In this document: positions 19,255 to 56,944 of the stretch, in pieces
How the letters are laid out: the number at the start of each line of letters is the position of its first letter
How positions within the stretch are numbered: the first letter of the stretch is position 1
Assembly (NCBI RefSeq): GCF_000969985.1
Contig: NZ_CP009526.1
Location: 4,650,001-4,714,000, forward strand
Reading direction: 5' to 3'
Source of the DNA: Methanosarcina barkeri str. Wiesmoor
Lineage (GTDB): Archaea; Halobacteriota; Methanosarcinia; Methanosarcinales; Methanosarcinaceae
Length of the DNA: 64,000 nt
Program-made: the position numbers and the translations under genes
Notes under the pieces: generated by a model
The model's input: the letters and a program-made list of their open reading frames with translations, nothing else
Database searches by the model: none
Told to the model about the DNA's origin: nothing

Positions 19255-20439
19255 ATGGTTAAAAAAGTAAATAATATTTTCCTGGTTTATTACGGCTCTT
19301 TCAATGCTAAATCAGGTTCGAACATCCACATTCTTGAACTTTTAAGAAATTTAAAAAAGTATACTGATATAGTCTTGTTTGTACCCGGACAGAAGAGTGT
19401 AGACCGTACTCTTCCAGGGATAAAATGCGTGCCTGTAATAGACAATAAATATCTTGTACAGCCCTCTTACGAATTCATGCTTTCTTTTTACCTTCTTTAT
19501 TCTTGCATAAGAAATAGGCCTGATGTGCTCTATCTTCGCCAGAATTCTTTTCCGTTCTTTCCCATATTTCTATGTAAAATTCTAAAAATTCCTTCAATAG
19601 TAGAAGTCAATGGGATAGTTCTGGATGAGTTAAAGGTCGATCCAAATTCACAGTCTTTTGCGTATAGAGTTTTCTCTCATCTTGCACTCCGGTCTGAGAA
19701 CTTTAATTACAAGCATTGCGACAGAATTGTTTCTGTCACGGATAAGCTCAGGGACGAACTTGTGAGACTATACTCTGTTCCGGAGAGTAAAATCTATGTT
19801 ATTAACAATGGGGCAAATACCGATGTATTCAAGCCTCTTGGTTTAGAACAGACAAGAGAAAAACTGCAGCTTGAAAACTCAAAAAAGTACGTATGCTTTG
19901 TAGGGAATCTTGCAGCCTGGCAGGGAGTTGAATTTCTCATCCATGCTTCTCCTTTAATTCTGGAGAAATGTCCTGATACTCATTTTCTTATTGTCGGGGA
20001 CGGAGTTATGAAGGATAAATTGATGGAAACGGCTTCCAAGTTAGAGCTTTCGGATAAATTTACTTTCACCGGAAGAATCCCCTACGAACAAGTTCCTCTC
20101 TACATTAACGCGGCCGACGTCTGCGTTGCTCCTTTCATCAAGGAAAGGAACTCAAAAATAGGACTTTCAGCGTTGAAAACGTATGAGTACCTTGCCTGTG
20201 GAAAGCCGATTGTGGCAAGTGGTATTTCAGGAGTCAAAGATTTGATTGAAGCTTCAGGTGGTGGAATTTCAGTAACTCCCGAGAATCCTAAACAACTTGC
20301 TACTGCTGTAATAAGGTTGCTTCTCGATGAAAATACCCGAGTTCTTATGGGAGAGAAAGGACGAAGATATGTCGTTGAGAATCACAGCTGGGATGGAGTT
20401 GCAAGAAAAATTCTGGACATATGCAAAGATATCATTTAA
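19255..20439 (+). CDS. Family 4 glycosyltransferase, founder of the duplicated module
   Basis: A 394-residue GT-B transferase. It has SGSNIHILELLRNL at the N-terminus (nucleotide-loop region), INNGANTDVF in the linker, FVGNLAAWQGVEFLI in the donor domain, and a variant E-x7-E (KIGLSALKTYEYLACGKP). It is closely related to the protein at 42404-43624 (same NGANT, LAPWQGVEYLI and YEYMACGKP blocks). Its last about 75 bases are copied, in decayed form, downstream of three of the four disaggregatase genes (23105, 26027, 29027). This shows that the array grew by duplication starting inside this gene. Substrate unknown. Confidence 0.88.
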   Translation: MVKKVNNIFLVYYGSFNAKSGSNIHILELLRNLKKYTDIVLFVPGQKSVDRTLPGIKCVPVIDNKYLVQPSYEFMLSFYLLYSCIRNRPDVLYLRQNSFPFFPIFLCKILKIPSIVEVNGIVLDELKVDPNSQSFAYRVFSHLALRSENFNYKHCDRIVSVTDKLRDELVRLYSVPESKIYVINNGANTDVFKPLGLEQTREKLQLENSKKYVCFVGNLAAWQGVEFLIHASPLILEKCPDTHFLIVGDGVMKDKLMETASKLELSDKFTFTGRIPYEQVPLYINAADVCVAPFIKERNSKIGLSALKTYEYLACGKPIVASGISGVKDLIEASGGGISVTPENPKQLATAVIRLLLDENTRVLMGEKGRRYVVENHSWDGVARKILDICKDII

Positions 20440-20904
20440 CCTGCTTTCGGCAAGTATACGTGAGAATTCATTTAATATCTCTACTAATATCGATTTATTG
20501 AAAACTTCAAAAATTAAATTTAAATTGAAAACTATTAAATGTTAACCATATTTTCATTAATATATTTTATAATATATTGGAAAAACGGCAAATAGGATTG
20601 AGACTCTATCCGCATGATTCTAATATTCAAAAGAACTTATAATAAATAACTACCAAATATGTTAATATATTAAAATGTGCTTGCTGCCGAAAATTCGAAA
20701 AATATCATGCCCATTTGTATATTACAGCTCTGCCGTAACAGAGTCCGGCAATTATATAATATTTATCTTAATCACACTGTTTACTTTAAGGAGTTAATTA
20801 GAAATTGGCAACAAATTTACTATTTTCTCAAGAGGAATTTGTGTAAGTTGGAGAAATTGGTCTGAGAAACAGGCGACTTATTCTGAATTCTTTACTATAG
20901 TATC

Positions 20905-21212
20905 TTGTTTGATTCAGTAGTTTTCGCTATGAATTATTATTTCAGCACTTAATTCTACAGTCCTTAAACTCATATACCCATCTTTTAAAAAATTGTGTTA
21001 AATCGTATATAAAAAATTATTATAGATATATAAATATTTTTAATAGATATTATCAAATTATATAACTGTATACGCTGTTACTACACAAATATCTACCTAA
21101 CAGAAATAATTATGTAATTTGTTAGGATTTGTACTAAACAATTTCGATGTTAGAACGAGGATTAGGAATCTTTTTATTGAGGGGTTGCCTTATTCTTGAA
21201 GACGTTATTATA
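20905..21212 (+). pseudogene. Relic of a fifth disaggregatase module (leader plus signal peptide)
   Basis: Three decayed pieces follow the order of the intact modules. At 20909-20934 is GATTCAGTAG..TTCGCTATGAA, as in the conserved leader. At about 21075-21130 is sequence resembling the region before the fourth gene. At 21147 an ATG opens a 36-codon frame starting MLERGLGIFLLRGCLILED, which matches the signal peptide MLKRELGIFFLISCLILAN of the genes at 23872 and 26874. After about 21212 the similarity stops. I read it as the 5' end of a lost paralogue. Confidence 0.7.
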
Positions 21213-21438
21213 TATTTACTTTTTACATTTTCAAAAATTAATTTGCGTATATAAAGCCTTTGAATTCTGAAAGAATCTAACGTTTGCGATATCTTGTTCA
21301 ACATATCTGAAAATAGAAGTAAGCTTCTTCAACTTTGTAACAAGTTGGCATATATTTTACGGAGGTGCGGATACGTCACTGCACAAATATTTAATTATCA
21401 AAAATATTAATAAATTTCATTCTGATCATATTCAGATA

Positions 21439-22908
21439 ATGTCGACGTTAAAACGAGAACTGGAAATCCTTTTATTGGTAGGTTGCCTTATTCTTGTAAA
21501 CGTTCCTACTGCTTTATGCCTAAGTCCTGCACCAACTGTTTACGTTGCAGGGGATGGTAGTGGAGATTTTAACTGCGATGGAAAAGATGATCATGTACAG
21601 ATAAATCAGGCCCTTAAGTTTGTGGCCGATAATTCTGAATATACAACTGTCCACCTTAAAGGTCCTTTTACGTATGTTATTGACGATACTCTTCTCATCG
21701 GCAGCAATACTATTCTTGAAGGGGATTCTACTGCTGTGATCAAGCTGGATAACAATGCAGGTTGGGTTGTAATGAAACCTATGATCCAGCAGATGAGCAG
21801 TTCCGGAAATAACAACATTGTAATAAGAGGGTTCGAGGTTAATGGAAATCACGATGGAAATTCCGAAGAGGATGGTGACGGATACTACAATATAATGTAC
21901 TTACTCCATTGCAATAACGTAGAAGTATACAATATGTATATGCATGATGGTCATGGAGACGGGCTGAGGATAAAATATAGTGAGAACGTCAAGTTTTACG
22001 ACAATACCATCTACAAGCTTGGGCATGACGGTTTGTTTGCAATTCAGTGCCAGAACGTAGAGGCTTGGAACAATAAAATAACCTGTAGGACTAACAGCGG
22101 CCTTAGAGTCTGGAATTCAAACCACATCAAACTCCATGATAATTTAATCGATTCTTTCTACCATTGGAGCGCAGGTGGCCCGGGCATTCAGGTAGAAAAG
22201 TCTGCAGGTACTATGGATGATATTGAAATCTACAATAATACTATCCATAACACCTATGGGCCTGGAATCTGGCTGTTCAACTATGATACCTCTGCTACCA
22301 AAGACCAGGGGAAAAATATCCATATTTATCATAATATCTTATACAGTACAGGTACCAATCCTAGCATTACATGGGTTGGGGGTATTCTGGGGAGTGGATT
22401 CCACGATACACTTATAGAAAATAATGTCTTTGACAGTTCATATCATGTTGCTATTGTCAGTATGTGTCCTGAGCGTTATTCTCCAGATTACTCATCAGAA
22501 TACACAACAATTGCCCATAACAACATAATCGTAAATACCCAGAAACGTACAAAGTATCCGAGTGGGACAGGGTATGGAATTATGAATTATCTGCCTGCAA
22601 CACATTCATTTGATATTTCTTATAATTGTCTTTATAATAATTCAGCAGGTTACTATAAAAACTGCACCTCGAAAGCGGATCTCCATATAAGGCCATTATT
22701 TGTAGACCAGGAAAACCATGATTATCACCTTCAATCAAGAGGTGGAACTTGGAACGGGAAAACCTGGGTTAAATACAAAGTGAGTTCTCCATGTATTGAT
22801 TCCGGATATTCGTCCTCTGACTATTCCAAAGAACCTGAAGATAACGGAAACAGAATCAACATAGGAAGGTATGGGAACACGATCTATGCATCAAAATCAA
22901 AGCACTGA
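21439..22908 (+). CDS. Disaggregatase-family secreted beta-helix protein 1 (no C-terminal repeat)
   Basis: A 489-residue exported protein with a signal peptide of about 29 residues (hydrophobic core LLLVGCLILV). A disaggregatase N-terminal stretch follows (VYVAGDGSGDFNCDGKDD, about 33-50; the DxNxDGxDD part may bind calcium). The rest is a right-handed parallel beta-helix rich in N-N-x-I repeats (about 120-440). The family includes disaggregatase, which cleaves the methanochondroitin matrix of Methanosarcina. It ends just after the helix (NTIYAS), lacking the disaggregatase-related repeats of its array neighbour. The start is shifted: the codon aligned with the ATG of genes 2 and 3 is ACG here, and the ATG used lies two codons upstream, without a clear SD. 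Confidence 0.8.
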   Translation: MSTLKRELEILLLVGCLILVNVPTALCLSPAPTVYVAGDGSGDFNCDGKDDHVQINQALKFVADNSEYTTVHLKGPFTYVIDDTLLIGSNTILEGDSTAVIKLDNNAGWVVMKPMIQQMSSSGNNNIVIRGFEVNGNHDGNSEEDGDGYYNIMYLLHCNNVEVYNMYMHDGHGDGLRIKYSENVKFYDNTIYKLGHDGLFAIQCQNVEAWNNKITCRTNSGLRVWNSNHIKLHDNLIDSFYHWSAGGPGIQVEKSAGTMDDIEIYNNTIHNTYGPGIWLFNYDTSATKDQGKNIHIYHNILYSTGTNPSITWVGGILGSGFHDTLIENNVFDSSYHVAIVSMCPERYSPDYSSEYTTIAHNNIIVNTQKRTKYPSGTGYGIMNYLPATHSFDISYNCLYNNSAGYYKNCTSKADLHIRPLFVDQENHDYHLQSRGGTWNGKTWVKYKVSSPCIDSGYSSSDYSKEPEDNGNRINIGRYGNTIYASKSKH

Positions 22909-23104
22909 TGCACCGGTATGTTTATCGTTTCTTTTATCGTGAATCCAGATACTTGAGGTTGCGTTAATAAATTAACATTGATAAAGTACCTAACCGTTAT
23001 GGAAAAACTAATGTCAAGAAAATTTAGTTATTGGTCACAGGTTAACTCTGAATCGTTACATATTGATGAGAATAAATCAAAAATTATGCCCAATAATTAA
23101 ATTG

Positions 23105-23190
23105 CCATGACACTAGATACATCCTTGAGAATTATAGCTGGGAGGGAGTTGAAAAAGATTCGGTACAACTTTAGCGATATCATTCAATAG
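23105..23190 (+). pseudogene. Decayed 3' end of the GT4 gene at 19255 (copy 1)
   Basis: The sequence AGATAC.TCCTTGAGAAT..TAGCTGGGA.GGAGTTG followed by GATATCATT aligns with 20368-20440, the last codons of the GT4 gene (RYVVENHSWDGVARK ... DII). Read in frame it begins RYILENYSWEGVEK. It lies 200 bases after gene 1 of the disaggregatase array. Confidence 0.75.
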
Positions 23191-23209
23191 TTTTCTTTAA
23201 CGATAGTGG

Positions 23210-23367
23210 TACAGGTAGTCTCAAAACGATATTCAATTCTACAATTGAGATAATTTATTGGCGATAAGAGTAAGCCCTGCATAAATTTTGGAATGATTTC
23301 CTTCAGAATTAAGTCAAAAATGTCCCTCCCAATTATAGAAATTGTTAGAGTTTTGAGACCTCCAGTA
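23210..23367. mobile_element. About 158-bp MITE-like element with long terminal inverted repeats
   Basis: The left end (TACAGGTAGTCTCAAAAC) and the complement of the right end (TACTGGAGGTCTCAAAAC) match at 15 of 18 positions. Similarity continues inward, with gaps in identity, to about 40 bases, ending CTACAATTG versus CTATAATTG. No reading frame is present. It sits between the GT4 relic and the leader of gene 2 and is absent from the equivalent place in the other array units, so it is a separate insertion. No target duplication was obvious. Confidence 0.65.
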
Positions 23368-23548
23368 TCTTTTAATAAAGCTGATTCTGACTTCGGTTGT
23401 TGTCCAGAATCTTCATAGGTTCTTCTTACAATCTCACAGACTGACTAAAAATTTAAAAAGACTGCCCAAATAGTTATATAACGTTGTGATATAGTTTATA
23501 CTGTTGACTATAGAAATTAAATTGAGGGATAATACTTTATTTACTTAC

Positions 23549-23790
23549 TATGTTTCATGGGGGGACTTAGGTGAATTTAAGGAATTAGCCTGAAAAAAAG
23601 GGAGATTTCTTCTGGATCCCTTATTTATTGTATTTTATTGGATTCAGTAGCTTTCGCTATGAATAAACTCTCCAGAACTTTTCTATAGCCTTGAATGTCG
23701 GAGAGTGGATACTATTTAAAAAATCTCATCCACCATTCAGTGAACTGAGCAAGAAATTTGTCTAATTATTTGATAAACAATTGTAATTTT
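23549..23790 (+). promoter_or_regulatory. Conserved leader of disaggregatase gene 2
   Basis: This non-coding block precedes three array genes. It starts TTTCATGGGGGGACTTAGG, then has GATTCAGTAGCTTTCGCTATGAA (with TAGC-TTTC-GCTA able to form a small hairpin), then ACTCTCC (23667-23673) pairing perfectly with GGAGAGT (23700-23706). The 7-bp stem is kept in all three copies. It could be a structured 5' leader or promoter element; no known riboswitch was recognised. Confidence 0.5.
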
Positions 23791-23871
23791 TGTAGACATA
23801 TGGGTACTTTCACCCAGTTCTTACTCTGTAAGCTTATTAACAAATTTTCACAGTAGTCTCAGGTGATATAG

Positions 23872-25845
23872 ATGCTAAAAAGAGAATTAGGGATCTTTTT
23901 CTTGATAAGTTGCCTTATTCTTGCAAACGTTCCTACTGTTTTATGCCGAAGTCCTGCACCAACTGTTTATGTTGCAGGAGATGGTAGTGGGGATTTTAAC
24001 TGCGATGGAAAAGATGACCATGTACAGATAAATCAGGCCCTTAAGTTTGTGGCCGGGAACTCTAAATATACTACTGTTCACCTCAAAGGTCCTTTTACGT
24101 ATGTTATTGACGATACTATTCTCATCGGCAGCAATACTATTCTTGAAGGGGATTCAAACGCTGTTATTAAACTGGCTAACAACGCAGGTTGGGCTACAAT
24201 GAAACCTATGATCAAGCAGATGAGCAGTTCCGGAAATAACAACATTGTAATAAGAGGGTTTGAGATTAATGGAAACCATGACGGTAATCCTAAAGTTTCT
24301 AAGGGTAAAGGGTACTATAATATGATTTACTTTACTAACTGTAATAACGTAAAAGTATACAAAATGTATATGCACGATGGACTTGGAGACGGGCTGAGGA
24401 TAAAATACGGAAAAAATATTAAATTTTATAAAAACAGGATATACAAACTCGGGCACGACGGTCTGTTTGCAATTCAGTGTCAGAATGTAGAAGCCTGGAA
24501 TAATACAATAACCTGTAGAACTAACAGCGGTCTTAGAATCTGGAACTCAAACCATGTAAAATTCCATAATAATGTAATCAATTCTTTCTATCACTGGAGT
24601 GCAGGCGGGGCGGCCATTCAAATAGAAAAGTCTGCAGGAATTATGAATGACATAGAGATCTATGATAATACTATATCTAACACCTATGGACCTGGAATCT
24701 GGATTTTCAACTATGATACCTCTGCTACTAAAGATCAAGGGAAAAATGTTCATATTTATAATAATGTCTTCTACGGTACAGGTACCAATCCGAGCATTAC
24801 CTGGGTTGGAGGTATTGTAGCCAGTGGGTTCCATGATACTCTAATTGAAAATAATGTTTTTGACGGCGTATACCATGCTGCTGTTATTCATATGTATCCA
24901 GAAGCTTATTCTCCAAAGTACTCGTCAAAATACACAACAATTGTCCGTAACAACATAATTGTAAACACTCAGAAACGTACAAAGGCCCCTAGTGGAACAG
25001 GGTATGCAGTGATAAATTATCTTACTAAAAACCATAACTTTGTGCTGGAGAATAACTGCCTTTACGAGAATTCAGCAGGCAAATATAAAGGCTGCACTTC
25101 GAAATCCGACATATACTTAAACCCATTATTTGTAAACCAGAAATACCATGATTATCACCTCCAATCAGTTGCAGGTCACTGGAATGGAAAAAAATGGGTT
25201 AAAGACAGAGTTAGTTCTCCCTGTATTGATTCCGGATATGCCTCGTCTGACTATTCTAAAGAACCGGAAAATAATGGGAACAGGATCAACATAGGAAGAT
25301 ATGGAAACACAATCTATGCTTCACTGTCATCGAGTTCAAGAGTAAAGACTGTGCAGTCTTCGTTAACAGACTATATCTCCGAAGCTACAAATGAGACTGA
25401 TGAAGATCTTAACTTTACGGAGGAAGTTTTTGACGTGGACGAAGATAATTGCACATACTCTGAAGATCTTTCTATCGACACACAGAGCCTGGTTATCGAT
25501 TCAATTCCCAAAACTACAGTTAAGATTGGAGAAACTTTGAACTTTACAGTAAAAGCTTCTGATGTGAATGGAGGCAATCTTACCTTTTCAGCATCTGCTC
25601 TTCCTGAAGGCGCAAGTTTTGACGAAACAGGGATTTTTAACTGGACGCCTTCAGAAGGACAGGAAGGAATATACAAGATATATTTTGAAGTAAGCGATGG
25701 TATTTTCAAAGATTCTGAAGGTGCAATAATAAGTGTGGTTGAAGAAGACTCTTTGAACCTTTCTAATGTGTACGACAGCTACATTTACGAAGTATCTCCT
25801 GAAGATCCTTGTTTGAATAATTTATCTTTCGGATTGGAGGAATAG
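23872..25845 (+). CDS. Disaggregatase-family secreted protein 2 (beta-helix, Ig-like domain, truncated repeat)
   Basis: A 657-residue exported protein. It has a signal peptide ending near residue 25, the disaggregatase N-terminal motif (33-50), a right-handed beta-helix (about 120-455), an acidic linker (about 505-535), and an Ig/cadherin-like domain (about 541-622, SIPKTTVKIGETLNFTV ... IYFEVSDG). The last about 28 residues (NLSNVYDSYIYEVSPEDP) align with the first strand of the disaggregatase-related repeat of gene 4 and then stop at a TAG, so the repeat is truncated. The ATG has an ideal SD, AGGTGAT, four bases upstream. It is nearly identical to the next gene. Likely an extracellular matrix-cleaving or matrix-binding protein; catalytic activity is not proven by sequence. 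Confidence 0.82.
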   Translation: MLKRELGIFFLISCLILANVPTVLCRSPAPTVYVAGDGSGDFNCDGKDDHVQINQALKFVAGNSKYTTVHLKGPFTYVIDDTILIGSNTILEGDSNAVIKLANNAGWATMKPMIKQMSSSGNNNIVIRGFEINGNHDGNPKVSKGKGYYNMIYFTNCNNVKVYKMYMHDGLGDGLRIKYGKNIKFYKNRIYKLGHDGLFAIQCQNVEAWNNTITCRTNSGLRIWNSNHVKFHNNVINSFYHWSAGGAAIQIEKSAGIMNDIEIYDNTISNTYGPGIWIFNYDTSATKDQGKNVHIYNNVFYGTGTNPSITWVGGIVASGFHDTLIENNVFDGVYHAAVIHMYPEAYSPKYSSKYTTIVRNNIIVNTQKRTKAPSGTGYAVINYLTKNHNFVLENNCLYENSAGKYKGCTSKSDIYLNPLFVNQKYHDYHLQSVAGHWNGKKWVKDRVSSPCIDSGYASSDYSKEPENNGNRINIGRYGNTIYASLSSSSRVKTVQSSLTDYISEATNETDEDLNFTEEVFDVDEDNCTYSEDLSIDTQSLVIDSIPKTTVKIGETLNFTVKASDVNGGNLTFSASALPEGASFDETGIFNWTPSEGQEGIYKIYFEVSDGIFKDSEGAIISVVEEDSLNLSNVYDSYIYEVSPEDPCLNNLSFGLEE

Positions 25846-26026
25846 CTGAACTTTAAAATCAACGTTGATCAATGAATTTCCAGGAAAAACTATAAATGGA
25901 CAAGGTAAACAAGAATTGAAACTTTCTGGGTTCATCTGCGTTTGTCCGTGGTTTATTAAGAATATGTGAAATCGATTCACTAGATAAAACAAGCTTTTTC
26001 AAGAGAATGATCGGAATATCTTAAGA

Positions 26027-26076
26027 ACGTAGCTAGAATGGAGTTGCAAGAATGGAATTGGAGCAATATTATCTAA
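26027..26076 (+). pseudogene. Decayed 3' end of the GT4 gene (copy 2)
   Basis: AGCTAGAATGGAGTTGCAAG followed by a weaker ATTGGAG..AT.TTATCTAAC match aligns with AGCTGGGATGGAGTTGCAAG and the end of the GT4 gene at 20385-20442. It is more decayed than the copy at 23105. Confidence 0.6.
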
Positions 26077-26552
26077 CAGTACTTTTATGATATGTCAGAT
26101 GGTTATGCCTAACTTCCAAACTCCTTTCTAACTTCCGTATTCTTTTCTATTTTTGGCAGGTTTCCTAGTAATTTTCTATCCTTTGTGGAGTCTTAATCTA
26201 TAAAATTCGATTTTTAATAATTTACATAACTGTTTTTGAAGTGTTTAATCCTTTTTTAAAGTAAAAGTAAAAAGTTGACTTTGCCAAAACTATGCAATAT
26301 ATTATCAAAAGAAGAACTCACCTCAAAATAAAGAGCTATAGTCCACCACATGAATTTAGTTACGATGTAGGCTCAATAAACTCTGTTTTAATTTTGACTT
26401 TTCTCATTCCAAATACTTATTTATTCCCTAGAACACGATGCAATTCTTCGAATATTTGTCAGATTTGCCCAAATACTTTTATAACATTGGGATATAATTT
26501 ACAATGTAGACTATAGAAATTAAATTAAGGGCTAATACATTATTTATTTACT

Positions 26553-26792
26553 ATGTTTCATGGGGGGACTTAGGTGAATTTAAGGAATTAGCCTGAAAAA
26601 AGGGAGATTTCTTCTGGATCCCTTATTTATTGTATTTTATTGGATTCAGTAGCTTTCGCTATGAATAAACTCTCCAGAACTTTTCTATAGCCTTGAATAT
26701 CGGAGAGTGGATACTATTTAAAAAATCTCATCCACCATTCAGTGAACTGAGCAAGAAATTTGTCTAATTATTTGATAAACAATTGTAATTTT
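26553..26792 (+). promoter_or_regulatory. Conserved leader of disaggregatase gene 3
   Basis: Almost identical to the leader at 23549, including TTTCATGGGGGGACTTAGG, the TAGC-TTTC-GCTA hairpin and the 7-bp stem. The near identity is expected from the recent duplication, so it adds little independent evidence for selection. Confidence 0.5.
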
Positions 26793-26873
26793 TGTAGACA
26801 TATGGGTACTTTCACCCAGTTCTTACTCTGTAAGCTTATTAACAAATTTTCACAGTAGTCTCAGGTGATATAG

Positions 26874-28847
26874 ATGCTAAAAAGAGAATTAGGGATCTTT
26901 TTCTTGATAAGTTGCCTTATTCTTGCAAACGTTCCTACTGTTTTATGCCGAAGTCCTGCACCAACTGTTTATGTTGCAGGAGATGGTAGTGGGGATTTTA
27001 ACTGCGATGGAAAAGATGACCATGTACAGATAAATCAGGCCCTTAAGTTTGTGGCCGGGAACTCTAAATATACTACTGTTCACCTCAAAGGTCCTTTTAC
27101 GTATGTTATTGACGATACTCTTCTCATCGGCAGCAATACTATTCTTGAAGGGGATTCAAACGCTGTTATTAAACTGGCTAACAACGCAGGTTGGGCTACA
27201 ATGAAACCTATGATCAAGCAGATGAGCAGTTCCGGAAATAACAACATTGTAATAAGAGGGTTTGAGATTAATGGAAACCATGACGGTAATCCTAAAGTTT
27301 CTAAGGGTAAAGGGTACTATAATATGATTTACTTTACTAACTGTAATAACGTAAAAGTATACAAAATGTATATGCACGATGGACTTGGAGACGGGCTGAG
27401 GATAAAATACGGAAAAAATATTAAATTTTATAAAAACAGGATATACAAACTCGGGCACGACGGTCTGTTTGCAATTCAGTGTAAGAACGTAAAGGCCTGG
27501 AAAAACACAATAACCTGTAGAACTAACAGCGGTCTTAGAATCTGGAACTCAAACCATGTAAAATTATATAATAATGTAATCAATTCTTTCTATCACTGGA
27601 GTGCAGGCGGGGCGGCCATTCAAATAGAAAAGTCTGCAGGAATGATGAATGATATAGAGATCTATGATAATACTATATCTAACACCTATGGCCCTGGAAT
27701 CTGGATTTTCAACTATGATACCTCTGCTACTAAAAATCAAGGGAAAAATGTTCATATTTATAATAATGTCTTCTACGGTACAGGTACCAATCCGAGCATT
27801 ACCTGGGTTGGAGGTATTGTAGCCAGTGGGTTCCATGATACTCTAATTGAAAATAATATTTTTGACGGCGTATACCATGCTGCTGTTATTCATATGTATC
27901 CAGAAGCTTATTCTCCAAAGTACTCGTCAAAATACACAACAATTGTCCGTAACAACATAATTGTAAACACTCAGAAACGTACAAAGGCCCCTAGTGGAAC
28001 AGGGTATGCAGTGATAAATTATCTTACTAAAAACCATAACTTTGTGCTGGAGAATAACTGCCTTTACAAGAATTCAGCAGGCAAATATAAAGGCTGCACT
28101 TCGAAATCTGACATATACTTAAACCCATTATTTGTAAACCAGAAATACCATGATTATCACCTCCAGTCAGTTGCAGGTCACTGGAATGGAAAAAAATGGG
28201 TTAAAGACAAAGTTAGTTCTCCCTGTATTGATTCCGGATATGCCTCGTCTGATTATTCTAAAGAACCGGAAAATAATGGGAACAGGATCAACATAGGAAG
28301 ATATGGAAACACAATCTATGCTTCACTGTCATCGAGTTCAAGAGTAAAGACTGTGCAGTCTTCGTTAACAGACTATATCTCCGAAGCTACAAATGAGACT
28401 GATGAAGATCTTAACTTTACGGAGGAAGTTTTTGACGTGGACGAAGATAATTGCACATACTCTGAAGATCTTTCTATCGACACACAGAGCCTGGTTATCG
28501 ATTCAATTCCCAAAACTACAGTTAAGATTGGAGAAACTTTGAACTTTACAGTAAAAGCTTCTGATGTGAATGGAGGCAATCTTACCTTTTCAGCATCTGC
28601 TCTTCCTGAAGGCGCAAGTTTTGACGAAACAGGGATTTTTAACTGGACGCCTTCAGAAGGACAGGAAGGAATATACAAGATATATTTTGAAGTAAGCGAT
28701 GGTATTTTCAAAGATTCTGAAGGTGCAATAATAAGTGTGGTTGAAGAAGACTCTTTGAACCTTTCTAATGTGTACGACAGCTACATTTACGAAGTATCTC
28801 CTGAAGATCCTTGTTTGAATAATTTATCTTTCGGATTGGAGGAATAG
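26874..28847 (+). CDS. Disaggregatase-family secreted protein 3 (near-duplicate of protein 2)
   Basis: A 657-residue copy of its neighbour with the same domains: signal peptide, beta-helix, acidic linker, Ig-like domain and truncated C-terminal repeat. I count 11 amino-acid differences: I83L, Q204K, E207K, N210K, F231L, H232Y, I257M, D288N, V329I, E399K and R446K. All lie in the first 446 residues; 447-657 are identical. The net effect is about seven more positive charges on the beta-helix. SD and start are identical to gene 2 (AGGTGAT, four bases, ATG). Confidence 0.82.
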   Translation: MLKRELGIFFLISCLILANVPTVLCRSPAPTVYVAGDGSGDFNCDGKDDHVQINQALKFVAGNSKYTTVHLKGPFTYVIDDTLLIGSNTILEGDSNAVIKLANNAGWATMKPMIKQMSSSGNNNIVIRGFEINGNHDGNPKVSKGKGYYNMIYFTNCNNVKVYKMYMHDGLGDGLRIKYGKNIKFYKNRIYKLGHDGLFAIQCKNVKAWKNTITCRTNSGLRIWNSNHVKLYNNVINSFYHWSAGGAAIQIEKSAGMMNDIEIYDNTISNTYGPGIWIFNYDTSATKNQGKNVHIYNNVFYGTGTNPSITWVGGIVASGFHDTLIENNIFDGVYHAAVIHMYPEAYSPKYSSKYTTIVRNNIIVNTQKRTKAPSGTGYAVINYLTKNHNFVLENNCLYKNSAGKYKGCTSKSDIYLNPLFVNQKYHDYHLQSVAGHWNGKKWVKDKVSSPCIDSGYASSDYSKEPENNGNRINIGRYGNTIYASLSSSSRVKTVQSSLTDYISEATNETDEDLNFTEEVFDVDEDNCTYSEDLSIDTQSLVIDSIPKTTVKIGETLNFTVKASDVNGGNLTFSASALPEGASFDETGIFNWTPSEGQEGIYKIYFEVSDGIFKDSEGAIISVVEEDSLNLSNVYDSYIYEVSPEDPCLNNLSFGLEE

Positions 28848-29026
28848 CTGAACTTTAAAATCAACGTTGATCAATGAATTTCCAGGAAAAACTATAAATG
28901 GACAAGGTAAACAAGAATTGAAACTTTCTGGGTTCATCTGCGTTTATCCCTGATTTTTGAGGATATGTGGATCGATGCACTAGATAAAACAAGCTTTTTC
29001 AAGAGAATGATCGGAATATCTTAAGA

Positions 29027-29076
29027 ACGTAGCTAGAATGGAGTTGCAAGAATGGAATTGGAGCAATATTATCTAA
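29027..29076 (+). pseudogene. Decayed 3' end of the GT4 gene (copy 3)
   Basis: Same decayed GT4 tail as at 26027, carried along in duplication unit B and identical to it over this stretch. Confidence 0.6.
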
Positions 29077-29552
29077 CAGTACTTTTATGATATGTCAGAT
29101 GGTTATGCCTAACTTCCACACTCCTCTCTAACTTCCGTATTCTTTTCTATTTTTGGCAGGGTTTCCGGGTAATTTTCTATCCTTTGTGGAGTCTTAATCG
29201 ATATCATCTTACTCTTAATCATTTGTATAGCTGTTTTTAAGTGTCTAATTTCCTCTTTTAAGGTAAAAGCAAAAAGTTGACTTTGCCAAAACTATGCGAT
29301 ATATTATCAAAAGAAGACCTTCCATTAAAAATGAATATCTGGAATTTACTTTCTAAATTTGATTCCAGCATAGATTTAATAAAACTATATTTTGATTTTG
29401 ACTTTTCTCATTCCAAAGACTTATTTGTTCTCTCAATCACTATGCAACTCCCTAAATATTTAGTAAGTTTGCACATATATTTTTATAACATCGCGATATA
29501 GTTTACAGTGTTGACTATAGAAATTTAATTGAAGGCTAATACTCAGATTATT

Positions 29553-29735
29553 CACTATGTTTCATGGGGGGATTAGGTGAGTTCGAGGAATTGGCCTGAA
29601 AATAGGAGATTTATTCTGAGTCCCTTATTTATTGCATTTTATTGGATTCAGTAGCATTTGCCATGAATAAACTCTCCAGAACTTTTCTATAGCCTTGAAT
29701 ATCGGAGAGTGGATACTGTTTAAAAAATCAGATCC
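29553..29735 (+). promoter_or_regulatory. Conserved leader of disaggregatase gene 4
   Basis: This is the most diverged of the three leaders, so what it keeps is informative: TTTCATGGGGGGA, GATTCAGTAGC, and the whole stretch from ATGAATAAACTCTCC through GGAGAGTGGATACT. The ACTCTCC/GGAGAGT stem is at 29671-29677 and 29704-29710. The upstream TAGC...GCTA hairpin is damaged here (GCATTTGCCA). Confidence 0.5.
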
Positions 29736-29842
29736 AATTTGCGAGAAACAGAATATTAAATAAACTTTTGACAAATAATAACAAACTTTGCGGGGATATT
29801 GATACGTCACCACATGAAAATCTACCTACGAAAATTAACAAT

Positions 29843-32512
29843 ATGCGCTGTTGTGATCAATCCCAGGTAATCTCGATATTAAAACGAGAATTAGGAGTCT
29901 TTTTATTGGTAGGTTGCCTTATTCTTGCAAGCGTTCCTACTGCTTTATGCCGAAGTCCTGCACCAACTGTTTACGTTGCAGGGGACGGTAGTGGAGATTT
30001 TAACTGCGATGGAAAAGATGATCATGTACAGATAAATCAGGCCCTTAAGTTTGTGGCCGATAATTCTGAATATACAACTGTCTACCTTAAAGGTCCTTTT
30101 ACATATGTTATTGACGATACTATTCTCATCGGCAGCAATACTATTCTTGAAGGGGATTCTACTGCTGTGATCAAGCTGGTTGATCATGCAGGCTGGGTTA
30201 CAATGAAACCTTTGATCAAGCAGATGAGCAATTCCGGAAATAACAACATTGTAATAAGAGGGTTTGAGGTTAATGTGAACCATGACGGTAACACCGAGTT
30301 CGCTAAGGGTAAAGGATATTATAATGTGATTTACTTCCTTTACTGCAATAACGTAGAAGTATACAATATGTATATGCATGATGGTCATGGAGACGGGCTG
30401 AGGATAAAATATAGTGAGAACGTCAAGTTTTACAACAATACTATCTATAAGCTCGGACACGACGGTCTGTTTGCAATTCAGTGTCAGAATGTAGAAGCCT
30501 GGAATAATACAATAACTTGCAGGACTAACAGCGGTCTTAGAATCTGGAACTCAAACCATGTAAAATTCCATAATAATGTAATCAATTCTTTCTATCACTG
30601 GAGTGCAGGCGGGGCGGCCATTCAGATAGAAAAGTCTGCAGGAATTATGGATGATATAGAGATCTATGATAATACTATATCTAACACCTATGGCCCTGGA
30701 ATCTGGCTTTTTAACTATGATAGCTCTTCTGCTACCAGAGACCAAGCGAAAAATGTCTACATCCATCACAATACTTTCTATGACACGGGCACTAATCCTA
30801 GCATTACTTGGGTAGGCGGTATCATAACTGGCGGATTCGAAGACACTGTTATTGAAAACAATGTATTTGACGGAATCTACCACACTGCAATCGCCAATAT
30901 GTATATCAACAGTTATTCCCCAACCTATGTGCCAGAAGGTGATGGATTCACAACAATTGTCCGCAATAACATAATTGTAAATACCAGGTTGCGCACAAAG
31001 TCTCCGAGTGGGACAGGGTATGGAATTATGAATTACCTACCTGCAACACATTCCTTTGTGCTGGAAAATAACTGTCTTTACAATAACTCAGCAGGTAACT
31101 ATAGAAACTGCGCGTCGACAACTGATATCCATGTAAACCCTCTTTTTGCAGACTCAGAAAACCATGAATACCATATTCAATCCGTCTCAGGCCGCTGGAA
31201 CGGAGAAACCTGGGTTAAGGATACTGTAAGTTCTCCCTGTATTGATGCCGGGTGTTCTTTCTCGGATTACTCTAACGAGCCCGAAAACAATGGAAACAGA
31301 ATCAATATAGGAAGATATGGAAACACAATCTACGCGTCTCTTTCAGGAACCTCTTTGAATCTCTCTGGAGAGATGTACGACAACCGTATGCGTGAAGCTT
31401 CTCCTGACGATGTCTTTTCGGAGAAGTCATTTCTCGATGTAGGGGGAATAAGCCGTGTTGGCAAATACAGAGATCTTATATGGTTTAACGTAAGCGAATA
31501 CACCAATGCTACTGAAATCAGCAGTGCAACTCTTTCCCTTTTCTGGTACTACCCTTACAGCACACGACCAAATGATACTATTATCGAGGTTTACAGGCCT
31601 GTTTCTTGGAATCCTGACTATGTAAGCTGGAATAAAAAGAATAAAGATATTACCTGGAATAACGCAGGAGGAGATTGGTATGACAGAAATGGTGTTCTCC
31701 AGGGAAGTACTCCGTATGCTACATTAACCCTGAGAGCCAGTAGTTTGCCAGATAACAGGTATTATGAACTCAATGTAACCGATCTCGTAAAAGAGTATGT
31801 CGGTGGCAAGTACGAAAACACAGGTTTCCTTATAAAAGCCCGCAGTGAAAATGATAACTATATCGCCTTCTACAGTGCTGACTGCGGAAACATGAATCAG
31901 GTGCCGAAACTTAATATTGAGAAAAGGGTAACTGCAAATGCAACTATTACTGACGCAAAAGACAACCGTCTACGTGAAATCTCGCCTGAGGGCGTTTTTT
32001 CTGACACACCATTTATCGATGCAGGAGAATTAAGTAATGTCGGGAAGTACAGAGATGTTATATCGTTTAATTTAAGTGAATATACCAGTGCCACAGAGGT
32101 AGACAGTGCAACTCTTTCTCTTTTCTGGTATTACCCTTCCAGCACACGATCAAATGATACGGTTATCGAGATTTACAGGCCTGTTTCTTGGAACCCTGAC
32201 TATGTAAGCTGGAATAAAAAGAATAAAGATATTGCCTGGAATAACGCAGGAGGAGATTGGTATGACAGAAATGGTGTTCTCCAGGGAAGTACTCCGTATG
32301 CTACATTAACTCTGAGAGCCAGTAGTTTGCCAGATAACAGGTATTATGAACTCAATGTAACCGATCTTGTAAAAGAGTACGTCAGTGGCAGGTACGAAAA
32401 CACAGGTTTCCTTATAAAAGCCCGCAGTGAAAATGATAACTATATCGCCTTCTACAGTGCTGACTGCGGAAACATGAATCAGGTGCCAAAACTGAATCTT
32501 GTATACAGATAA
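29843..32512 (+). CDS. Disaggregatase-family secreted protein 4 (beta-helix plus two disaggregatase-related repeats)
   Basis: An 889-residue exported protein and the most complete of the array. It has a signal sequence with core GVFLLVGCLILASV, the disaggregatase N-terminal motif, and a beta-helix (to about 500). Two tandem disaggregatase-related repeats follow, starting YDNRMREASPDD and KDNRLREISPEG. They lie 194 codons apart and are almost identical over their second half (WNPDYVSWNKKNKDI to QVPKLN). The start is uncertain. At the place where genes 2 and 3 have ATG after AGGTGAT, this gene has ATA after AGGTAAT (29876). The nearest in-frame ATG is 29843, with no clear SD, and a TTG at 29768 would be longer still. 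Best candidate in the array for a disaggregatase-type matrix hydrolase. Confidence 0.78.
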   Translation: MRCCDQSQVISILKRELGVFLLVGCLILASVPTALCRSPAPTVYVAGDGSGDFNCDGKDDHVQINQALKFVADNSEYTTVYLKGPFTYVIDDTILIGSNTILEGDSTAVIKLVDHAGWVTMKPLIKQMSNSGNNNIVIRGFEVNVNHDGNTEFAKGKGYYNVIYFLYCNNVEVYNMYMHDGHGDGLRIKYSENVKFYNNTIYKLGHDGLFAIQCQNVEAWNNTITCRTNSGLRIWNSNHVKFHNNVINSFYHWSAGGAAIQIEKSAGIMDDIEIYDNTISNTYGPGIWLFNYDSSSATRDQAKNVYIHHNTFYDTGTNPSITWVGGIITGGFEDTVIENNVFDGIYHTAIANMYINSYSPTYVPEGDGFTTIVRNNIIVNTRLRTKSPSGTGYGIMNYLPATHSFVLENNCLYNNSAGNYRNCASTTDIHVNPLFADSENHEYHIQSVSGRWNGETWVKDTVSSPCIDAGCSFSDYSNEPENNGNRINIGRYGNTIYASLSGTSLNLSGEMYDNRMREASPDDVFSEKSFLDVGGISRVGKYRDLIWFNVSEYTNATEISSATLSLFWYYPYSTRPNDTIIEVYRPVSWNPDYVSWNKKNKDITWNNAGGDWYDRNGVLQGSTPYATLTLRASSLPDNRYYELNVTDLVKEYVGGKYENTGFLIKARSENDNYIAFYSADCGNMNQVPKLNIEKRVTANATITDAKDNRLREISPEGVFSDTPFIDAGELSNVGKYRDVISFNLSEYTSATEVDSATLSLFWYYPSSTRSNDTVIEIYRPVSWNPDYVSWNKKNKDIAWNNAGGDWYDRNGVLQGSTPYATLTLRASSLPDNRYYELNVTDLVKEYVSGRYENTGFLIKARSENDNYIAFYSADCGNMNQVPKLNLVYR

Positions 32513-52354: not shown

Positions 52355-54066
52355 ACTTTCCGCAGTAAATTTTCTGGATTTGATATTTTTCAAATCATGT
52401 ACTTACTTTTTATAAAATCTCATCCAATTTCCCCTTGATGACTCTCTCTCCCATCTCTGAATCCACAACTCATCTTGGTCATTATGGCCTTATTGCTGGC
52501 ATATTTGACGAACTTGAAATTTCAGATTTGATTGACACTCTTCTTCCTAAGAAAAGTGGTCATAACATTTCTCATTCTACTGTTCTTAAGGCAATGTGCA
52601 TTAACGGTTTAGGATTTACTGAACGTCGTCTTTACCTATTTCCTGCTTTCTTTGAAAACTTGCCCACTGAAAGGTTACTGGGAGAAGGTGTTCTCCCAGA
52701 ACACCTTAATGATGACGTTTTTGGCAGAACTCTGGACAAAATCCAGGAATATGGAGCAACCGAAATCTTCAATCATATAATTCTGCAAGCTATGAAACAC
52801 GTTCCTATTAATCCTCGTTTTTGTCATTCAGATACTACAAATTTCAGTGTTTATGGTGACTATAAAAATGATGATAACGGCAAAACTATCAACATTACTT
52901 ATGGTCATCCTAAAGATAAGAGAGTCGATTTACTTCGTTTTTCTATTTCTATGGTTACTGATCAGAAAAGAATTCCTCTGTTTGTGAGAGCGTTAGATGG
53001 TAACAGTTCCGATAAGAAAGTTCTCATCAAAACCATAAAGGAAGTAACACAGAACCTGAATCTTGATCAGAGAGTCTACCATATTGCAGACAGTGCATTT
53101 TATACTGAAGATAATGTCAAAGAGATAGGAACTAACGCTTTTTTCATCTCGAGAGTACCTGCAACCATCAATGAATCAAAGGAATTATTGATGACAGACT
53201 TAATTCTGGAAACATGCTCTGATGAACGTTATTCTTGTTCTGCTGTAAAATCCTGTTATGGTGGAGTAGAACAGTTATGGGTTGTATTCTGTTCAGAGGA
53301 AATGAAAAAGAAGGAAGAGAAGAAATTTGATGAAAAGATTCTCAAAGAGCTTGAAGCAGCAGAAAAGTCTCTTAAAAAGCTTTCTAATCATGAGTTTGCT
53401 TGTGAAGCAGACGCAAGAATGGCTGCTGAACAATGGTTGAAAGAGAATGAACTGTATGAATTCCAGAAACTTGAAATAAAAACTAAGTCACACAGACTTG
53501 GAAACAAGAAAGGAAGACCAAGGAAAGGTGAAGATGTACAGACTTTTTACCTGATAGAAGCAGAGATAAAACACGACCAGGAGAAAGTACAGGAAAAAAG
53601 AGCAAAGTTAGGAAGGTTCATTCTTGCAACCAATGATCTGGAGTTGACTCCAGATCAACTCCTAAAGTACTATAAAGAACAGGGAACAGTTGAAAGAGGG
53701 TTCAGGTTCCTTAAAGATAAGAGTTTCAGAGTGTCTGAGGTGTACCTGAAAAAAGAGTCCAGAATAGAAGCACTTGCAATGGTAATGGTTCTGTGTTTGT
53801 TATTGTATTCAATAGCTGAATGGAAACTGAGAACAAGATTGGAGGAAACAAAAGAAGCTATTAGAAACCAAGTAAAGAAGAAAACACAGACTCCAACAAT
53901 GAAATGGGTATTCTTTCAGTTCAGGAGAATAACGGAGTTAGAGATCGAAATTGAGGGAAAGAGGATAAAAAAGGTATTAAATCTGGATGAAGAAACAATT
54001 AAAGTGCTGAGATTGATGGGAGAAAAATACGAAAAATATTATATGTGAAAAAATAATGCGGAAAGT
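52355..54066 (+). mobile_element. IS1634-family insertion sequence
   Basis: About 1.71 kb bounded by inverted ends: ACTTTCCGCAGTAAATTTTC on the left and the complement of TGCGGAAAGT on the right, which read inward continues ACTTTCCGCATTATTTTTTC. A second partial left end (CTTTCCGCAGTAAAATTTC at 52324) lies 31 bases outside. I could not see a clear target duplication. The single gene is a full-length transposase, so the element may be active. Confidence 0.8.
52438..54048 (+). CDS. IS1634-family DDE transposase
   Basis: A 536-residue transposase with the DUF4277-type N-terminal region (THLGHYGLIAGIFDEL) and an RNase H-like core split by an insertion. The presumed catalytic residues are D in FCHSDTTNF, D in YHIADSAFY and E in GTVERGFRFL. 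The basic, coiled-coil-like stretch at about 285-380 belongs to the insertion domain. No frameshift or stop is present. The ATG at 52438 directly follows a TTG that could also start. Confidence 0.9.
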   Translation: MTLSPISESTTHLGHYGLIAGIFDELEISDLIDTLLPKKSGHNISHSTVLKAMCINGLGFTERRLYLFPAFFENLPTERLLGEGVLPEHLNDDVFGRTLDKIQEYGATEIFNHIILQAMKHVPINPRFCHSDTTNFSVYGDYKNDDNGKTINITYGHPKDKRVDLLRFSISMVTDQKRIPLFVRALDGNSSDKKVLIKTIKEVTQNLNLDQRVYHIADSAFYTEDNVKEIGTNAFFISRVPATINESKELLMTDLILETCSDERYSCSAVKSCYGGVEQLWVVFCSEEMKKKEEKKFDEKILKELEAAEKSLKKLSNHEFACEADARMAAEQWLKENELYEFQKLEIKTKSHRLGNKKGRPRKGEDVQTFYLIEAEIKHDQEKVQEKRAKLGRFILATNDLELTPDQLLKYYKEQGTVERGFRFLKDKSFRVSEVYLKKESRIEALAMVMVLCLLLYSIAEWKLRTRLEETKEAIRNQVKKKTQTPTMKWVFFQFRRITELEIEIEGKRIKKVLNLDEETIKVLRLMGEKYEKYYM

Positions 54067-54667: not shown

Positions 54668-56755
54668 TCAGGTATACTCTATAGTGAGTTTGGGTCTCTG
54701 ATTTTTATTTTGCCAGTTGGAACTGTAGAAAGCTACATAGTTTTCATCTTCCTCGTGGGCTTTTATAAGGAAACCTGTATTCTCGTACTTTCCGCTTATA
54801 TATTCCTGCACAAGTTCTGTTACATCTAGGTCGTAGTAGCGGTTGTCAGGGGTTTCATCTCCACTGATAGTTACCTTGGCATATGGAGTGCTTCCCTGGA
54901 AAATCCCATTCCGGTCATACCAGTCTCCTCCAGAGTTTTTCCAAGGGTCATTAGATTCCCTCTGCTGCCAGGTAACATGTTCTCTGCACCATTTCGTAGG
55001 CCTGTATACTTCCAGTATGGTATCCTTCGATCTTATTTGATTCTCCGGATAGTACCAGAATAAAGATAGGGTTGCCTCATCAACCTGGTCAGTCTGATTA
55101 AGTGAACTCAGATCAAAGATTATAACGCCTCTGTAAATGCCTCCATCGGATTTTTTTCCGACATCTATATACTCACTATCACTAAAAGTGATATTTGGAG
55201 CTTCTTCTCTCAGCCTGTTGTCAGAAATAATGAAAGGTAAAGCAATTTTAAGGTTTTCCGCTTTATCAGACTGCATCGAAAGATTTAAGAATAATTTTTT
55301 CAGGAACCTTATAAACTCTGAAAAAGCCCTTTTAAGACTCGACTCAAAGCCTTCTTCCTGTCCGGTCTGGACTTTGCTTTCATTTATCTCATAAGGCATC
55401 TGTGGTCCAGCAGACATAGCTTCACTCCAGGGAAAGTCCTTACCCAAAGACTCATTGGTGTTCAACTTCGCTGCAAGTTCTGAGTCAGCTTCAACGTCTG
55501 AGGTAGAATTTACACCCATATAATTTCCACCGGCGTTGCCTGAAAGACAATTGTTTTCCAGGATAAAGGAATGGGTATTTTTTAGATGGTTGTATACAGC
55601 ATATCCATCTCCAGCTGCAGGACTAGACTGTGTATTAATTATTATATTATTTTTCACGATAGTTATATAGCCTGAACCTGGGGCCGAAAATTCATCACTG
55701 ACCTGTTTATGGGCAATAGCAGCTCCATAGCATCCGTCAAATTTATTGTTCTCTATCATGGTATTTTGGACACCATTAAGCACTATGCCCCCTGACCAGT
55801 CCGCACCCTCGTTAATACCGGTTTTATAAAATTTATTATGGTGTATGAATATATCTTTTGCAGAATCTTTAGAATACCCGGATCCATAGCCTGTAATCCA
55901 TATACCTGCTGTGTTCGTCTCATATAGCAGATTATTGTAGATCTCGATATCATTCATCACAGTTGACGGACCAATTTTCTGGATTTCGATTCCTGCCCCA
56001 CCCCCTCCTTCTGAGTTAATTATATTGTTATAGAATTTTACATGGTTTGTATTGTAAATTCTCAAACCGCTATTCGTTCTGCACGTTATTTTATTATTCC
56101 AGGCCTCTATATTCGAAGAATAGATAGCGTAGAGGACGTCATGCCCTAACTTATATACCCGGTTATTGTAAAACTTAACACCTGAACATTTTACGGCTTT
56201 AAGCCCATCGCCATGGCTGTCATGCATATACATATCGTGAACCTGTATATTCTCGCAGTTAAGGACATGGATCAGGTTATGATATCCTTTCCCCCTATTC
56301 TTTTCATTGTTTTTATCGTGATTTCCGTCAATCTCAAATCCCCTTATAGTAATATCATGATTTCCAACACTGTCCATCTGCGTAATCATAGGTTTTTCTA
56401 GAGGCCAACCTGCTTTATCTTCAAGTTTGATTACGGCTGTAGAATCTCCTGCCAGAATAGTGTCGTTTCCAATAAAAATACTGTCCGAGATGATGTATGT
56501 ATTGGGGCCCTTCAGATGAACGGTTGTGAACTGAGGGTTTTCTGCAACATATGCAAGAGCTTTGTTTATCTCTACCTGGTCGTCACTTCCATCACAGTTA
56601 AAGTCCCCACTTCCATTGGTAGCAACATAAACTGTTGTACAGGATGTCTTTGATAAAGTGAGAGTTATACTTACGATTATAAAAACAAAAATTATATTAA
56701 GAAACAATAACTTTTTTCTGTCTCCCCATTTATACGTTAGCTTCTTTCCATTCAT
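54668..56755 (-). CDS. Disaggregatase-family secreted protein 5 (beta-helix plus one repeat)
   Basis: A 695-residue protein with an N-terminal hydrophobic signal or anchor (LLFLNIIFVFIIVSITL, about 17-33) and the disaggregatase motif VYVATNGSGDFNCDGSDD. A beta-helix (about 120-430) lacks the last turns and the CIDSGY block seen in the array proteins. A linker with an amphipathic stretch (EFIRFLKKLFLNLSMQ) follows, then one disaggregatase-related repeat (DNRLREEAPNITFSDSEYID to PKLTIEYT). The ATG at 56755 has GGGGAT five bases upstream; a start at 56791 adds 12 residues. It is separate from the plus-strand array and about as diverged from it as protein 6. Likely an extracellular matrix enzyme. 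Confidence 0.8.
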   Translation of the reverse strand: MNGKKLTYKWGDRKKLLFLNIIFVFIIVSITLTLSKTSCTTVYVATNGSGDFNCDGSDDQVEINKALAYVAENPQFTTVHLKGPNTYIISDSIFIGNDTILAGDSTAVIKLEDKAGWPLEKPMITQMDSVGNHDITIRGFEIDGNHDKNNEKNRGKGYHNLIHVLNCENIQVHDMYMHDSHGDGLKAVKCSGVKFYNNRVYKLGHDVLYAIYSSNIEAWNNKITCRTNSGLRIYNTNHVKFYNNIINSEGGGGAGIEIQKIGPSTVMNDIEIYNNLLYETNTAGIWITGYGSGYSKDSAKDIFIHHNKFYKTGINEGADWSGGIVLNGVQNTMIENNKFDGCYGAAIAHKQVSDEFSAPGSGYITIVKNNIIINTQSSPAAGDGYAVYNHLKNTHSFILENNCLSGNAGGNYMGVNSTSDVEADSELAAKLNTNESLGKDFPWSEAMSAGPQMPYEINESKVQTGQEEGFESSLKRAFSEFIRFLKKLFLNLSMQSDKAENLKIALPFIISDNRLREEAPNITFSDSEYIDVGKKSDGGIYRGVIIFDLSSLNQTDQVDEATLSLFWYYPENQIRSKDTILEVYRPTKWCREHVTWQQRESNDPWKNSGGDWYDRNGIFQGSTPYAKVTISGDETPDNRYYDLDVTELVQEYISGKYENTGFLIKAHEEDENYVAFYSSNWQNKNQRPKLTIEYT

Positions 56756-56944
56756 TTCAAATCCCCAATATATTGAACTATAATTCTTCAATATTAAAAA
56801 ATTTATCTTTTAGGACTGCAAATAAACTCCCCTCAAAAATATTTGCATTCTTCCCACTGCTTGAATCTCAGAACTAAAGTTCTGAAAAGTGCATCTTAAC
56901 TTTAAAAATTAAAATACATTCATGGAAAATCTGAATTTTTAAAA

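Follow-up and report, generated by a model that had tools for sequence, protein, structure and literature searches.

A disaggregatase gene array in Methanosarcina barkeri that probably grew by tandem duplications broken inside a neighboring glycosyltransferase gene

The disaggregatase array and its gene architecture

How did four genes for disaggregatase, which loosens clumped cells, come to stand in a row between a glycosyltransferase gene and a flippase gene in Methanosarcina barkeri, and what do the fragments of glycosyltransferase sequence lying between them record? The window (the whole stretch of DNA analyzed, 64,000 nt) belongs to a genome of 4.9 Mb (G000), in which the array lies between an intact GT4 gene (19255-20439, plus strand; PF00534, E 1e-34), which is the donor of the tails described below, and the flippase gene (33290). 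GT4 orthologs with matching neighbors are present in the other Methanosarcina genomes compared (one genome per species). The orthologous loci, with the same neighbors across the genus, hold one, two, three, or four disaggregatase genes; the copy number is four in this genome and one to three in the orthologous arrays of other Methanosarcina genomes.

All four array genes lie on the plus strand and contain PF08480 (Disaggr_assoc) at 248-278 bits (curated cut-off of 22.6). Gene 1 (21439-22908, 489 aa) comprises the catalytic part only (PF08480, E 9e-74); no Disaggr_repeat was found in it by the Pfam domain search, and its C-terminus, NTIYASKSKH directly before the stop codon, is identical in the gene-1 orthologs inspected. 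Gene 2 (23872-25845) and the near-identical gene 3 (26874-28847) each encode 657 aa with a catalytic and a He_PIG domain in Pfam. Gene 4 (29768-32512, 914 aa) combines the catalytic domain (PF08480, E 7e-83) with two Disaggr_repeat domains of the DNRLRE/CBM96 type (PF06848 in two stretches, E 5e-167) and retains its full C-terminus. Genes 1-3 are devoid of such repeats; that is, the upstream copies are truncated at the 3' end and the downstream copy is complete. The two-copy array of G020 (ERenArc_MAG2) likewise has a truncated upstream and a complete downstream copy, with the gene-4 repeats in a second frame. The ancestral architecture, a catalytic domain, He_PIG, and two repeats, is found in the single-copy genome DH2. 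The gene at the orthologous locus of G008, which we take to be the M. mazei disaggregatase gene, encodes three repeats and shows no match to He_PIG. No solved structure of a relative was retrieved by phmmer.

Gene 1 had 14 tblastn matches in the whole genome. Two further PF08480 genes lie on the minus strand of the window (54668-56791 and 58320-59933), one of them with a Disaggr_repeat, and a transposase gene (52435-54048; DUF4277 and DDE_Tnp_1, possibly IS1634-like) sits between a GT2-family gene and these genes.

GT4-tail relics and their junctions

The end of the GT4 gene (query window 20300-20445) was aligned with each spacer by the Smith-Waterman method, and the scores were compared with those of 500 dinucleotide shuffles. 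Decayed copies of the GT4 tail after genes 1, 2, and 3, as claimed in the original prediction, were recovered above all shuffles. The scores were 35 after gene 1 (shuffle maximum of 16, 0/500, Z 18.7; 20365-20439 vs. 23115-23187), 20 after gene 2 (maximum of 16, 0/500; 20352-20407 vs. 26002-26052), and 20 after gene 3 (maximum of 17, 0/500; match at 29002-29052). No GT4 tail was detected in the spacer after gene 4 (score of 12, reached by 123/500 shuffles), in the region before GT4 (score of 8, 480/500), or in the interval between GT4 and gene 1 (score of 10, 449/500). For both spacers tested against the last 400 nt of the 25 window genes, GT4 was the top match (35 vs. 17 and 20 vs. 14 for the next-best gene).

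Relic 1 was longer than first noted and spans about 22903-23187 (plus strand) with an insertion of ~100 nt at about 23010-23112; the part at 23115-23187 carries the Z of 18.7, and the rest was identified by the ortholog consensus. Its portion at 22903-22945 matches only weakly within this genome and was assigned from G010, G020, and G024. The junctions in these three genomes and the nhmmer match in G020 place the represented 3' part of GT4 at 20103-20439 (plus strand), i.e., from codon ~283. Relics 2 (26002-26062) and 3 (29002-29062), both on the plus strand, are 98-100% identical. As they are near-identical (98%) and lie within a homogenized tract of 2.6 kb, they were counted as one relic, relic 3 being a copy of relic 2 homogenized by gene conversion, and the array contains only two distinct GT4/enzyme junctions. 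The spacer behind gene 2 also holds an insertion of ~150 nt (25858-26000) containing CATCTGCGTTTGTCCGTGG, which may be a dispersed repeat; it is common to G029, G017, G002, and G021 and absent in G014, G024, and G023.

The relics were also recovered from the orthologous arrays. The consensus of the ortholog spacers matched the GT4 tail with a Z of 28 after gene 1 and 13 after gene 2, and the consensus of the last-gene spacers, used as a control, contained no GT4 tail (Z -0.9). In G020, a GT4 tail of 173 nt covering GT4 positions -156..0 lies directly behind gene 1 (nhmmer, E 1e-32), and the order is GT4, a catalytic-only gene, the GT4 tail, and a gene with repeats. A search of the genus with this relic returned mostly the GT4 tails themselves; besides the query, gene-1-type relics behind disaggregatase genes were found in G010, G024, G029, and G002. 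The relic was absent from all seven single-copy loci examined (six M. mazei-like genomes and G016, the latter having probably lost a copy). This comparison across Methanosarcina places on firm ground the proposed repeat unit, which has a breakpoint within GT4 and consists of the GT4 3' end, a leader, and an enzyme gene.

That breakpoint had been recognized at the outset; a second one, inside the enzyme gene, had been missed, and it removed the C-terminal carbohydrate-binding repeats of the upstream copies. Junction sequences joining the enzyme interior to the GT4 interior occur in several genomes and are absent at the seven single-copy loci. The region of the gene-1 stop codon matches GT4 -337..-297 in G020 and G024 and -335..-298 in G010 (p of 1-4/2000 each, in one shared register), and the stop codon in these three related genomes is out-of-frame GT4 DNA. 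About 140 nt of GT4 are missing before the homology resumes. At the gene-2 junction, the GT4 homology begins ~180 nt before the GT4 stop. Comparison of C-termini suggests that the break in gene 2 probably lies ~25 aa inside the first DNRLRE/CBM96-type repeat, with p of about 0.01-0.02 for the window gene and no significance for two orthologs.

Leader blocks, gene conversion, and selection

A leader block of ~200 nt was found upstream of 40 of the 44 disaggregatase genes of the locus examined across Methanosarcina. In the window, this conserved non-coding block lies on the plus strand at 20823-21004 (gene 1; nhmmer, E 1.4e-30), 23547-23755 (gene 2; E 3.6e-60), 26550-26757 (gene 3; E 8e-59), and 29552-29759 (gene 4; E 1.8e-56). 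The predicted order of GT4 tail, leader, and disaggregatase holds for genes 2, 3, and 4 and is kept in nearly all arrays, where relic, spacer, and leader are colinear with the interval between GT4 and gene 1. Resemblance between the spacer and this interval extends beyond the leader in G022 and G007, reaching to within ~80-100 nt of the GT4 stop; in this genome, the stretch from relic to leader has decayed too far for such a match. No leader was found outside the array in this genome; five further genomic copies of a short leader motif were judged to be chance matches (AT-rich, E 0.07, one beside a transposase gene). A structured RNA was rejected, as the leader had no Rfam match and the covariation term of its consensus fold was positive (i.e., unfavorable), and the leader was therefore treated as a conserved non-coding region, which may serve as a promoter or 5' region. 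Gene 1 lies 435 nt behind its leader, rather than ~117 nt, because of a tandem duplication of ~298 nt (21077-21206 vs. 21375-21504), which holds a decayed disaggregatase 5' end around 21146 (ATGTTAGAACGAGGATTAGG...).

Genes 2 and 3 are 98.7% identical across the catalytic codons (dS of 0.027). They lie in a homogenized tract, with copy A at 23517-26145 and copy B at 26520-29145 (both plus strand), whose identity is 96-100% in most bins of 100 nt and 93% in the lowest. A near-identical tract of 2.6 kb is prone to misassembly, which bears on the copy number of four. The edges of the tract are abrupt (63% and then below 50% on the left, 73-86% on the right), and the following 375 nt of the downstream spacers beyond the tract are 79% identical. 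A recent tandem duplication was rejected as the sole cause of the identity between genes 2 and 3, since the adjoining spacer is only 79% identical; the duplication that produced gene 3 is thus older than the identity suggests, and the pair was homogenized by gene conversion. Genes 1 and 4 also underwent gene conversion in their first 110 codons, with a dS of 0.02; between gene 1 and its ortholog in G029, dS is 0.19. In the disaggregatase gene tree, the orthologs of genes 2 and 4 are spread across the clade and the two G020 copies fall together, a pattern expected with gene conversion; the clustering of the G020 copies means that the distribution of gene 1 requires that gene conversion acted in G020 and that gene 1 was lost elsewhere.

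Orthologs and most older paralogs had a dN/dS ratio of about 0.12-0.2, which indicates purifying selection, and the copies are thus retained enzymes. Gene 4 would combine its activity with matrix binding, which genes 1-3 would lack. The array of G029, the closest relative, is split, with gene 1 beside GT4 and genes 2 and 4 inverted ~59 kb away.

Growth of the array and comparison with known systems

Taken together, the array very likely grew by tandem duplication of a segment running from the GT4 interior through the leader to the enzyme interior, with two captures and a third duplication, and the GT4 pieces would be non-functional scars. The ancestor would have carried one enzyme gene between GT4 and the flippase gene, composed of the catalytic domain, a He_PIG linker, and C-terminal DNRLRE/CBM96-type repeats. 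The duplicated segment would start inside GT4, pass through the enzyme leader, and stop inside the enzyme gene; its start would lie in the preceding gene, as is natural for a segment that includes a functional leader ahead of the enzyme gene. Each such event would yield two copies, an upstream one that has lost its 3' end and is fused with a GT4 tail, and a downstream one that is complete. In the capture that made gene 1, the break in the enzyme would have fallen where the catalytic domain ends, and the joined GT4 sequence would have begun around codon 283, with the stop codon supplied by out-of-frame GT4 sequence; in the one that made gene 2, the break would have fallen close to where the first repeat begins, with GT4 sequence attached from about 180 nt ahead of its stop. 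Gene 3 would have arisen from gene 2 by the third duplication, carrying the existing relic, and gene conversion would later have homogenized both, in an order of events that we infer. The original count of at least four rounds was too high, since four genes need three duplications; two of these left distinct GT4 junctions and the third copied an existing one, and the unit giving the extra fourth copy need not have begun in GT4.

In an alternative explanation, a single GT4/enzyme junction was copied by unequal crossing-over between enzyme genes, followed by different deletions in each copy; this would require GT4 to have been broken just once, and unequal exchange and gene conversion clearly operate in the array. 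However, the relics of genes 1 and 2 have 20 private changes each relative to GT4 and share only four derived sites, no alignment column is gapped in both relic consensuses, both breakpoints differ between the two junctions, and three deletions would be needed. We consider such a shared origin unlikely, although it is the strongest of the competing explanations. Because the junctions differ in both breakpoints and share few derived changes, two independent captures fit best, a preference that is a judgment of parsimony.

Duplication of whole GT4-disaggregatase pairs followed by deletion of the extra GT4 genes would likewise leave GT4 tails in every inter-copy spacer, and the gene-1 relic once held at least 337 nt of GT4. 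This course of events appears improbable, as tblastn maps revealed no N-terminal GT4 piece in any array examined and the upstream enzyme copies end exactly where GT4 begins, as a single fusion junction predicts. Chance resemblance, or convergence on a conserved motif at the C-terminus of GT4 enzymes (ENHSW...), might be considered, since this motif is short and no single genome gives a strong match for the gene-2 relic (best nhmmer E of 5e-7 in UBA289, 0.08 in this window), which depends on the consensus. It can be practically dismissed given that no shuffle reached the spacer scores, this GT4 was the best-matching of the 25 window genes, the ortholog consensus stands out against a clean control, and the G020 match extends over 173 nt; chance similarity was thus ruled out by the shuffle, other-gene, single-copy, and consensus comparisons. 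Building on independent captures, we tentatively suggest that at least two independent duplications broke inside GT4 and the enzyme gene and each yielded a repeat-less copy, a recurrent route to catalytic-only disaggregatases kept under selection beside a matrix-binding one.

Methanosarcina disaggregatase cleaves methanochondroitin; its activity has been experimentally confirmed only in M. mazei, and M. barkeri cells did not react with an antibody to the M. mazei enzyme (PMC12369344). The array genes resemble the M. mazei enzyme in the PF08480 catalytic region and, in gene 4, in the DNRLRE/CBM96-type repeats, which share homology with the alginate-binding module CBM96 (PMC9971899); the locus holds one long gene in M. 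mazei-like genomes and four genes here, of which three lack repeats. In the available part of the M. barkeri CM1 report, eleven proteins with PF08480 are counted, a similar abundance of paralogs, and that part gives the count with no array history (PMC4582637). No report of GT4 relics was found. The GT4 scars would explain how disaggregatase counts such as the one given in that part for CM1 have grown. A functional split is predicted between the copies that keep the DNRLRE repeats and those without them.

The array is a relatively ordered, multi-species record of the expansion of archaeal polysaccharide-degrading enzymes, in which fossil junctions distinguish the captures. In tandem gene amplification, a novel join point inside flanking genes is a general mechanism. 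The array resembles such amplification in its gene-interior joins and in the subsequent copy-number change and homogenization through homologous recombination; it differs in that its join points are old, common to several species, and coincide with upstream copies having lost their accessory domains. The process is ordinary gene amplification, a familiar type of event whose record, spanning several species, is unusually clear here.
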